DNA of 64,000 bases, taken from Nitrospinae bacterium CG11_big_fil_rev_8_21_14_0_20_45_15 (GTDB lineage: Bacteria > Nitrospinota > Nitrospinia > Nitrospinales > VA-1). Within the stretch, counting starts at the first letter, position 1. Every line of letters begins with the position of its first letter. Where the stretch lies: contig PCWG01000042.1 of the NCBI GenBank assembly GCA_002787235.1, positions 536,957-600,956 of the forward strand, given 5' to 3'. The notes under the pieces were generated by a model. It was given only the letters and a program-made list of their open reading frames with translations. It was not told where the DNA came from and did no database searches. The position numbers were made by a program, and so were the translations under genes. Shown one piece after another: positions 18,047 through 21,446 of the stretch.

Positions 18047-18838
18047 TCAGGCGAGGCGTTTTTGGATTTCCAGAGCGCGACAATGCTCTTCATCCAAACT
18101 GAGGAAACCTTTTTTCAAATCATTTTTCAACATCAATAATTCAAATCGCAAAGCTTCTTCAACGGCAGACTTGAAGGTCTCCCGGCCGTCACAGGCAAAA
18201 GCCACGATACGAGTATTGAACTTGGAAGGTTGCGCGTCGTGTAATATCTGATCGATGGTATTGGGCTGAATACCCCCGCCCAGCGAGACAGAAAAACCGA
18301 ATTTTTGGATACGAAGAATGGTCGAACGTACAAGATGAATAAAGTCTGCATCACGGCGTTTGGCACCCAAGGACTGTAGTAAATCGCTCGAACCGATGGT
18401 GACTTCGTCAATGTCTTTTGCGAAAGGGGAATCCAGTATTTCATCCAAATGCCGGATGGCAAAGGCCGTCTCGATGTTCACACATTTTTTTATGCGCCGA
18501 TATTGCAGGGGCGAACAGAAGTCACGAACCGCACCGATGAAATTTTCCAGCGCATAAGGCGATTCGATCATAGGGCCAATAACACCGTCCACATCCATAG
18601 GCAGAATGCTCCTGATGTCATACCTCGCATTGGGTCCCCCTATTTTGACATGAACCGGTAAAATCCCTCGCGCCATTTTCACCCATTCTTCAATTTGGGC
18701 ATGACTCATGGCCGAGTCTTCGGTAGACAATTTGATACCGATTGCCCCCTGTTCCACTTTCAACCGTTGCAATTCAGATGAAGGTGTATCCGGTTGCACA
18801 AGCTTCAACAATTGCTTTGGAGTTCTTTTACCAGTCAT
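18047..18838 (-). CDS. HpcH/HpaI-like aldolase (citrate lyase beta superfamily)
   Basis: A 263-residue TIM-barrel protein of the HpcH/HpaI/CitE superfamily, judged from the strand order HVKIGGPNA, DGVIGPMIES, CVNIETAFAI and EVTIGSSDLL; the glutamates in IES and IET fit the divalent-metal site. These enzymes cleave or form C-C bonds of 2-oxo or acyl substrates. The start is ATG at 18838, forming an ATGA overlap with the stop of the upstream fusion gene and having AAGGGG seven bases before it; the ATG at 18844 is too close to that site. Coupling implies a shared pathway. Exact family assignment is moderate. Confidence 0.75.
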   Translation of the reverse strand: MTGKRTPKQLLKLVQPDTPSSELQRLKVEQGAIGIKLSTEDSAMSHAQIEEWVKMARGILPVHVKIGGPNARYDIRSILPMDVDGVIGPMIESPYALENFIGAVRDFCSPLQYRRIKKCVNIETAFAIRHLDEILDSPFAKDIDEVTIGSSDLLQSLGAKRRDADFIHLVRSTILRIQKFGFSVSLGGGIQPNTIDQILHDAQPSKFNTRIVAFACDGRETFKSAVEEALRFELLMLKNDLKKGFLSLDEEHCRALEIQKRLA

Positions 18839-21093
18839 CGCCATTCCCCTTTAGAATTTCTGGCAATCGTCGAAGGCTCGATCTGAGTCACACGGGCATT
18901 GCCCGTTAATATCATCGCTTTGCGCAATTCTTCCCGTAACTGATTCAAATAAAACTCGACACCTTCCTGCCCGGCTCCAAAAGCCGCAATGCAAATCGGT
19001 CGTCCTATCAGTACCGCATCCGCTCCCAGAGCGAGCATCTTCAAGACATCGATGCCTTCCCGAATGCCGCCATCGACCAATACTTTGGCTCGGCCGCCAA
19101 CGGCATTGGCAATTTCCGGTAATACTTCAGCCGTACCCGGCATCGTGTCCATCACCCTTCCGCCATGATTGGAAACCACGATCGCGTCGGCACCAGCTTC
19201 TATCGCCGCCATTGCCGATTCGACATTCATGATCCCTTTCAAAATAAAGGGAACCGACAAATAACTTTTCAACTCACGCAACTCGTCAATCGTCTTGGGA
19301 GCCACCCGTTGAGATTTCAAGGCCATCGTCTTGAACGATGCCGCATCAATATCTATACCGACCGCTATCGCACCCGCATCTTCCGCCGCCTTGAATCGTT
19401 TGATGATGTCCAGATTGTATTCGCGTGGCTTGAAAATCGGGATGCCCAAACCACCGCGTTCGCGAATGGATTCCAAACCGATCAAATATTTTTGTGGGCT
19501 GGCACCGTCCCCCACCATCCCCATAGAGCCGCAACTGAGGCAACCGTCGAGCACGGCGTCGGCATAATCTTTTTCACCCATACCTCCCGCCAGATTGGTT
19601 TCCATGCCCGTGATCGGGGCGGCAAGAATGGGCAGGGACAGCTTGTGTCCGAAAAGCTGGATACTGAGATCGGGCTCCCGTACATTGTGAATGGTACGCA
19701 GATTGATTTTGTAACGCGCCAAAGCCCGGAGATTTTCTGTGAACGACTCGCCACTGCCGATCCCTCCTATTCCCGGTACTTTTCCCGCACATTCCACCCC
19801 ATCACATATAATGCAAGCCTTGCAGGCCGCGTAGAATTTTTTTCGCGCATTATTGCGGATGATGTCCCAGGTCAACTGAGTGGGCGAACCCATCTCGATG
19901 GTGATACAGGCCCGCGCCTGATCATTGATACGAATCGCTTCCTCGCGTGTTTTTGCTACTGTGATGACGTGTCCCATCTTGCCCAGATTGCTATTCAACT
20001 CCTCAACACGATCGCCCGCTTCCTTCATCAGGATCACTTCTTTAACCCCGCGAATTTTTCGCGCTTCCTCCACCCCTTGAACAGAAAGAATTTTACCCGG
20101 TGGAGGGATCAAAGCCCGCTCAGCCGCAAACAAATGGAGATGAGGTTTCAGATTCGTCGGTGTATCGCCGAGAGCCACCTGAATAGCCGCCTTGACCAAG
20201 TCCACTCCTGTAGCAAGCGGGTAAGTGTAACTCGACATCCAGCCACCGCTCAAACGCGCGGCGATCTCAACCACCTTCGGTCCCTCGGATGTGAGCTTGA
20301 TGTCTCCCTTCGCCGCTCCTACATTGATTCCCAAAGTACGAATGGCTTTGATAAAGATATCTTCAACCGCCTTCACATCCGCTTCTGGCAAGGCTGAAGG
20401 CAAAGTGTGCCCCGTTTCAACAAAACAGGGAGAACGTTCGATGATACGGTCCGCCACACCCGTGATAAAGATTTTTCCATCAAAAACCAGAGCGTCCAGA
20501 CTCAGCTCCGTCCCCTCCATAAAATCTTCGAGAACCAGCTTGCCGCTGATAGAGGCTTCCTTCGCTTCCCGGAACGCTTGCCGAAAATCAGATCGGCTTA
20601 AAATCTTGCGGACACCGCGCGCACCCATATTGTCACAAGGCTTGATGACCAACGGCAGAGGCATTTCATTCATCGCCTGCTCGCCCTCATCTAAAGTCCA
20701 GATCGGGCGGAAATCAGGGACGGGAACGCCTCCCGCCTTCAAACATTGGCGCATCTTGATTTTATCCGTAGCACGCTCAGCCACTTCAAAAGGAATTCCC
20801 GGCAAATTCAACGCATTGGCGACAGCCGCCACGGTTTGCGAAGCGTCCGTTCCGATGGTCATCACCCCATCGAGAAGGCACGACGTGTGGAACTGCTTCG
20901 CCGCATTGACCGTCAAATTGATATTGCGAGTACTGACCACCAGCGGATAGTCTGCCAGCAACATCCCCTCAGCTTCACGATTGTAATCCGTAACAACGAC
21001 CTTCAATCCCAAAGCCTTTGCTGTCTTGATCGCAGGAACCTGGAAAGGTCCCCCACCAATGACCATCAAATGTCGAATGCGTCCAGAACTCAA
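18835..21093 (-). CDS. Fusion of an ATP-grasp ligase and an FMN-dependent alpha-hydroxy-acid oxidase-like domain
   Basis: A 752-residue two-enzyme protein. Residues 8-400 are an ATP-grasp carboxylate-amine ligase: Rossmann-like start VIGGGPFQ, ATP-binding VIKPCDNMGARG (149-160) and metal site KVVEIAARLSGG (273-284). Residues 420-735 are an alpha-hydroxy-acid oxidase-type FMN barrel: K619 in FILKG, SNHGGR (641-646) with catalytic H643 and R646, DGGIR (674-678) and GRP. Between them lies a cysteine cluster C424, C427, C430, C435. The start is TTG at 21093 with AAGGGG five bases upstream. It is coupled to the HpcH-like gene. Substrate unknown; oxidation of a hydroxy acid and ATP-driven amide formation are expected. 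Confidence 0.88.
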   Translation of the reverse strand: MSSGRIRHLMVIGGGPFQVPAIKTAKALGLKVVVTDYNREAEGMLLADYPLVVSTRNINLTVNAAKQFHTSCLLDGVMTIGTDASQTVAAVANALNLPGIPFEVAERATDKIKMRQCLKAGGVPVPDFRPIWTLDEGEQAMNEMPLPLVIKPCDNMGARGVRKILSRSDFRQAFREAKEASISGKLVLEDFMEGTELSLDALVFDGKIFITGVADRIIERSPCFVETGHTLPSALPEADVKAVEDIFIKAIRTLGINVGAAKGDIKLTSEGPKVVEIAARLSGGWMSSYTYPLATGVDLVKAAIQVALGDTPTNLKPHLHLFAAERALIPPPGKILSVQGVEEARKIRGVKEVILMKEAGDRVEELNSNLGKMGHVITVAKTREEAIRINDQARACITIEMGSPTQLTWDIIRNNARKKFYAACKACIICDGVECAGKVPGIGGIGSGESFTENLRALARYKINLRTIHNVREPDLSIQLFGHKLSLPILAAPITGMETNLAGGMGEKDYADAVLDGCLSCGSMGMVGDGASPQKYLIGLESIRERGGLGIPIFKPREYNLDIIKRFKAAEDAGAIAVGIDIDAASFKTMALKSQRVAPKTIDELRELKSYLSVPFILKGIMNVESAMAAIEAGADAIVVSNHGGRVMDTMPGTAEVLPEIANAVGGRAKVLVDGGIREGIDVLKMLALGADAVLIGRPICIAAFGAGQEGVEFYLNQLREELRKAMILTGNARVTQIEPSTIARNSKGEWR

Positions 21094-21446
21094 AGTATCC
21101 CCTTAAGTAAAATTCAGCCAAATCCAGAACTATCTTCCTCTATTATCGACTAAAACGAAACCCCTCTTGATAAAATTATTTTATCTCCCTGAAAGTGCCT
21201 GTTTGATAACAAAAACAGCGTCAGCACAAACACCCACTTCCAAGTCCTGATTTTATATAAAAGTTATGGATAGATGCTCTGAAAATAAAAATTTTCTTTA
21301 AAAAACAACACATTAACACTTGACAGATAGAAGGAAACTCGTATATTCTCTATAAAGATACACACTGATATATTATTTTGAATTTATTAGCTTTATTTTA
21401 TTTATTTTAAGAAATTCAAGTAATATTTACACCGATAAAAAGAGAT
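21094..21446. other. AT-rich intergenic region between divergent genes
   Basis: About 350 bases with no gene I can support. The left part carries the ribosome site and leader of the fusion gene (minus strand), the right part a good sigma70-like promoter for the small plus-strand genes. Confidence 0.6.
21320..21347 (+). promoter_or_regulatory. Sigma70-type promoter
   Basis: A perfect -35 TTGACA (21320-21325) and TATATT (21342-21347) with a 16-base spacer, about 100 bases upstream of the first small membrane-protein gene. This is the clearest promoter by eye in the window. Confidence 0.6.

Follow-up and report, generated by a model that had tools for sequence, protein, structure and literature searches.

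Within a 64,000-nucleotide stretch of a Nitrospinae bacterium genome (the window), we identified a single gene that joins an ATP-grasp ligase to a flavin barrel of the FMN_dh family, adjoined by a gene for an HpcH/HpaI-like aldolase. This architecture we regard as practically beyond doubt; as far as we have searched, the fusion is confined to one order of Nitrospinota, and on present evidence what is new is the joining of known families, with no new kind of enzyme implied. Our preferred reading of its role, to which we give a probability of roughly one in three for the pathway as a whole, is that the module makes or N-acylates an unusual cell-surface building block of amino-sugar or ulosonic-acid-like type.

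The fusion gene and its partner

The module lies on the minus strand, a strand that the first-pass annotation did not give, and comprises the following features:

18835..21093, minus strand: ATP-grasp/FMN_dh fusion gene, 752 amino acids, TTG start at 21093, stop at 18837-18835
21099..21104, minus strand: Shine-Dalgarno-like AAGGGG, 5 nt 5' of the fusion's TTG start, found by eye
19894..21093, minus strand: ATP-grasp ligase half, residues 1-400, with LAL_C2 at its C-terminal end (Pfam, PDB alignment, fold match to 3vot)
18838..19881, minus strand: FMN_dh half, residues 405-752 (Pfam, alignment, fold match)
19789..19824, minus strand: C424-x2-C427-x2-C430-x4-C435 motif at the start of the FMN half (alignment of 33 full-length copies)
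18835..18838, minus strand: ATGA stop/start overlap of fusion and aldolase, read from the sequence
18047..18838, minus strand: HpcH/HpaI-fold aldolase-like protein, 263 amino acids, ATG at 18838 (Pfam, model fold match, alignment)

That one protein of 752 residues combines the two enzymes was the central claim of the first-pass annotation, and Pfam, fold matches and orthologues agree on it. The Pfam search, which had been proposed as a check on each half, places ATPgrasp_N (residues 24-99), ATP-grasp_4 (145-287) and LAL_C2 (326-401), each above its cut-off, in the first half; FMN_dh follows in the second, with its best stretch at 597-744 and another, weaker one N-terminal to that. The predicted structure best matches 3vot, an L-amino acid ligase, along with alpha-hydroxy-acid oxidases; the model is of middling quality (pLDDT 70, built from only 11 sequences, below 50 in the cysteine region). 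The motifs quoted earlier for both halves (IKPCDNMGARG and EIAARLSGG; K619, SNHGGR, DGGIR and GRP) are all present. The fusion is neither a chance event nor a frame artefact: one and the same full-length frame recurs in at least 30 genomes, and across 33 aligned copies 324 of the 752 positions never vary (ligase half 148, FMN half 176).

The reported overlap of the fusion's stop with the aldolase start is likewise real (ATGA, 18838-18835, minus strand) and suggests translational coupling; an AGGGG at 18850-18846 suits the ATG at 18838, and another possible ATG, at 18844, less well. The encoded protein matches PF03328 barely above threshold (26.1 bits against a cut-off of 25), and the best fold matches of its predicted structure are the TIM-barrel proteins HpcH, HpaI, YfaU and SbnG.

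Distribution in Nitrospinota

Of 77 Nitrospinota genomes, 37 carry the fusion when full-length or contig-truncated copies at more than 60% identity are counted; every one of these belongs to the window's order, and the identities are 69-94%. The first-pass annotation would have been refuted by neighbourhoods in which the aldolase never accompanies the fusion, and the mapped neighbourhoods of homologues show otherwise: the aldolase directly follows at 32 of the 36 loci whose downstream side can be judged (these counts were made by hand from search tables). The four fusion loci without it all come from one genus (g6), and no close aldolase (>40% identity) was seen apart from a fusion except at contig ends. 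Two further loci merit description. A short fusion fragment with an internal TAG, apparently a decayed copy, lies just upstream of aclB in one genome (G059:C60:4325-4600), and another genome, G063, carries two differing fusion-aldolase-acl regions on contigs 20 and 30 (L132, L088), reflecting either a real duplication or mixed strains.

Searches beyond Nitrospinota returned the parts and not the whole. Among 200 genomes of the phylum of a Glassbacteria relative the fusion is absent and the standalone ATP-grasp protein alone was found; a plasmid search likewise recovered no fusion, and the halves only as separate proteins. The aldolase found no match as a query against a name-bearing genome collection, nor did its alignment against a viral collection. 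A literature search on an ATP-grasp/FMN_dh fusion yielded no study, as judged from titles and the opening lines of abstracts.

Relatives, neighbourhoods and proposed function

Judged by alignment to PDB sequences, the ligase half retains the putative Mg and catalytic positions of the L-amino acid ligase type: its D264, E276 and R280 align with BacD E311, E324 and R328, the Mg-binding acidic pair and catalytic Arg of that enzyme. Its best PDB sequence match is the L-amino acid ligase 3vot, and its best NCBIfam match is PRK02186 (NF002563), at 142.7 bits far under the cut-off of 625. The nearest standalone ATP-grasp relatives found, at 50-55% identity in genomes of the Glassbacteria phylum, abut NeuB with a cytidylyltransferase nearby, and further standalone relatives lie in capsule or pseudaminic-acid loci.

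The aldolase points in a similar, less exclusive direction. Its metal-ligand-like E123 and D152, invariant in the 33 close and 7 distant relatives aligned, are putatively the metal-binding Glu and Asp of the HpcH/HpaI type; no clear equivalents of HpaI His45/Asp42 and Arg70 were seen by sequence, and E40, D41, K65 and R72 are conserved nearby. The signature KIGGPNAR stands where the 7 distant relatives have KIGG-x-EA, and N70 and N208 where all 7 have E. Distant relatives (about 29-34% identity) occupy glycan-type loci, one of them with NeuB and CTP_transf_3; in Ilyobacter, one lies beside aconitase and isocitrate/isopropylmalate dehydrogenase-type genes, so that this distant family is not restricted to glycans. 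Nitrospinota themselves hold a distinct KIGG-x-EA HpcH/HpaI-like subfamily in surface-glycan-type loci (L122:8914-9687, L119:5516-6298 and L123:5478-6263).

In the window's family, among genomes at least 90% complete, NeuB is found in 13 of 14 with the fusion versus 0 of 5 without it (Fisher p 0.0005), and, as a weaker contrast, in the whole order in 17 of 18 versus 3 of 9 (p 0.0017). Both p-values are too favourable, since the family subset was picked because it was striking, the genomes are related and those without the fusion tend to be smaller. The association may reflect genome streamlining alone. Four fusion-bearing genomes have no detected NeuB, and the neighbourhoods examined have no glycan gene cluster around the module itself. 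A NeuB remnant with several stops was also seen at G007:C43:6364-6678, in a genome with no detected fusion.

From the observed architecture, conservation, co-occurrence and residues we infer a route in which every reaction step, the step order and the link to glycans are conditional. The N-terminal half would be a carboxylate-amine ligase, as its family and intact residues suggest, using ATP to form an acyl-phosphate, which an amine then captures. The C-terminal half would be an FMN_dh-superfamily flavin enzyme with a remodelled pocket, probably acting on the same small molecule, by oxidation or reduction, either ahead of the ligation or following it. The carbon skeleton would likely come from the HpcH/HpaI-type protein, whose translation is probably coupled to that of the fusion, through an aldol reaction that depends on a metal and uses a 2-oxo acid, pyruvate for example. 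Between them, the three activities would most likely make or N-acylate an amino-sugar or ulosonic-acid-like precursor for the cell surface.

A doubtful alternative is a diffusible small molecule (a siderophore, a dipeptide or pseudopeptide, or a redox cofactor), for which the aldolase would make a hydroxy or oxo acid, the flavin half oxidise it and the ligase add an amine. The ligase half matches BL00235, BacD and RizA, and members of the L-amino acid ligase family produce dipeptides and antibiotic precursors; the aldolase model matches the HpcH-fold structure of SbnG, which produces citrate for staphyloferrin B; and the FMN_dh member MftD makes a redox cofactor, its NCBIfam match here lying far below cut-off. 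The closest ATP-grasp relatives found are, however, linked to glycans and not to natural products, and in the relatives examined no conserved transporter, regulator, receptor or other biosynthetic gene lies beside the module. Where the first-pass annotation had proposed a route to a natural product or redox cofactor, the neighbourhoods of relatives weakly favour surface-glycan or nonulosonic-acid chemistry instead.

The neighbourhood of the module raises a different idea. In most fusion-bearing relatives aclB (identified by Pfam) and aclA lie downstream in the same orientation, in many cases no more than about 300 bp away, and the aldolase belongs to the citrate-lyase/HpcH superfamily; the module might assist reductive TCA cycle CO2 fixation by working with ATP-citrate lyase, for example in repair or salvage of a side product. 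We consider this improbable. The acl genes are nearly universal across the order whereas the module is patchy, so the neighbourhood is one of synteny, not a proven functional link; no acl block adjoins the module in the window species or in its sister, the window species having kept the module in place, and in another genome (G027) the two are several kb apart. An ATP-citrate lyase operon as an obligate link was rejected, the acl block being on another contig in the window species. There the module lies on contig 37, and contig 26:220167-221426 (L127) carries the block aclB-aclA-(unknown)-AMMECR1-like-prenyl synthase that adjoins the module in many relatives. A GT2 gene adjoining the module is likewise a matter of general synteny.

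The FMN half and known systems

L-lactate oxidase and HAO1 are the best PDB matches of the flavin half, and its D583, K619, H643 and R646 align with FMN-binding and catalytic residues of HAO1. By sequence alignment only, equivalents of three residues (spinach glycolate oxidase numbering) are missing: G550-I-P552 occupies the place of HAO1 Q130-L-Y132, leaving no equivalent of Tyr129, and there is no Tyr in residues 430-445, where Tyr24 is expected, and no Arg at the place expected for Arg164 after D583. In p-hydroxymandelate oxidase, the R163A variant, altered at the position of glycolate oxidase Arg164, loses activity (PMC6677016), and Y128F gains a four-electron oxidative decarboxylation (PMC6778850).

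With these equivalents missing, the flavin half probably acts on something other than a plain 2-hydroxy acid, and plain oxidation of such an acid is unlikely. The label 'alpha-hydroxy-acid oxidase' given at first pass is thus not supported, although Lys, His, Arg and Asp are retained; of the chemistry then proposed, ATP-driven ligation has support in the amide-ligase residues of the ATP-grasp half. We accordingly give little credence to a plain lactate- or glycolate-type oxidase fused by chance to an amino-acid ligase: the strong PF01070 match (234 bits), the best PDB matches and the retained catalytic His643 and Arg646, with Lys619 and Asp583, speak for it, but the three missing equivalents, that of Tyr129 being absent from two standalone clostridial relatives as well, and the behaviour of the p-hydroxymandelate oxidase variants speak against it.

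The CxxCxxCxxxxC motif (424-435), which does not vary among the 33 full-length copies aligned and recurs in both clostridial relatives, is a possible, putative Fe-S or Zn site. That the FMN half might carry out no oxidation chemistry and serve for binding, sensing or structure, possibly with an Fe-S cluster at this motif, would suit the invariant cysteines (in a region of low model confidence) and the altered pocket, but is hard to credit given that the catalytic His and Arg are invariant in 33 copies and that unvarying positions are slightly more numerous here than in the ligase half (176 versus 148).

Returning to a biosynthetic role, such as the cell-surface precursor we prefer, we tentatively raise the prospect, itself rather unlikely, of a new bifunctional enzyme class whose single chain couples ligation to an unusual flavin reaction, perhaps Fe-S-assisted, on a shared substrate, with a product special to marine nitrite oxidisers; that product, if the class is real, would belong to the cell surface or be a small molecule. 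Nitrospinota, of which few members are in culture, count among the major nitrite oxidisers of the sea, and a conserved, order-specific bifunctional enzyme with two defined halves and a coupled partner would offer a tractable way into their surface or small-molecule chemistry. The module could also hint at the function of those clostridial FMN_dh proteins that carry the annotation 'alpha-hydroxy-acid oxidizing', the two members read appearing to be without that pocket.

Among known systems, L-amino acid ligases (BL00235/3vot, RizA, BacD) share the ATP-grasp plus LAL_C2 layout of the fusion at about 18-23% identity in structural alignments, with no FMN barrel attached; these dipeptide synthases are not its nearest sequence relatives, which are the glycan-locus ligases. 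PRK02186 (NF002563), an L-amino acid ligase-type ATP-grasp protein fused N-terminally to an unrelated enzyme, is a comparable fusion, although its partner is argininosuccinate lyase and not FMN_dh. HpcH/HpaI class II pyruvate aldolases and SbnG have the fold of the window's aldolase and the metal-ligand-like E123/D152, at identities of just 16-18%. Unlike the fusion, the ATP-grasp ligases that stand alone in NeuB, capsule and flagellin-modification loci have no FMN domain attached; Shewanella SfmE, an ATP-grasp_4 protein of a NeuB operon required for full flagellin modification (PMC3765264), is possibly of the same kind as the NeuB-locus ligases, a likeness drawn from description, not sequence. 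The clostridial 'alpha-hydroxy-acid oxidizing' proteins of Acetoanaerobium (L113) and Vescimonas (L114) match the whole FMN half at 41-47% identity, with the same cysteine motif and the same altered pocket at the Tyr129 position, as standalone proteins whose neighbouring genes are unrelated to the fusion-aldolase module.
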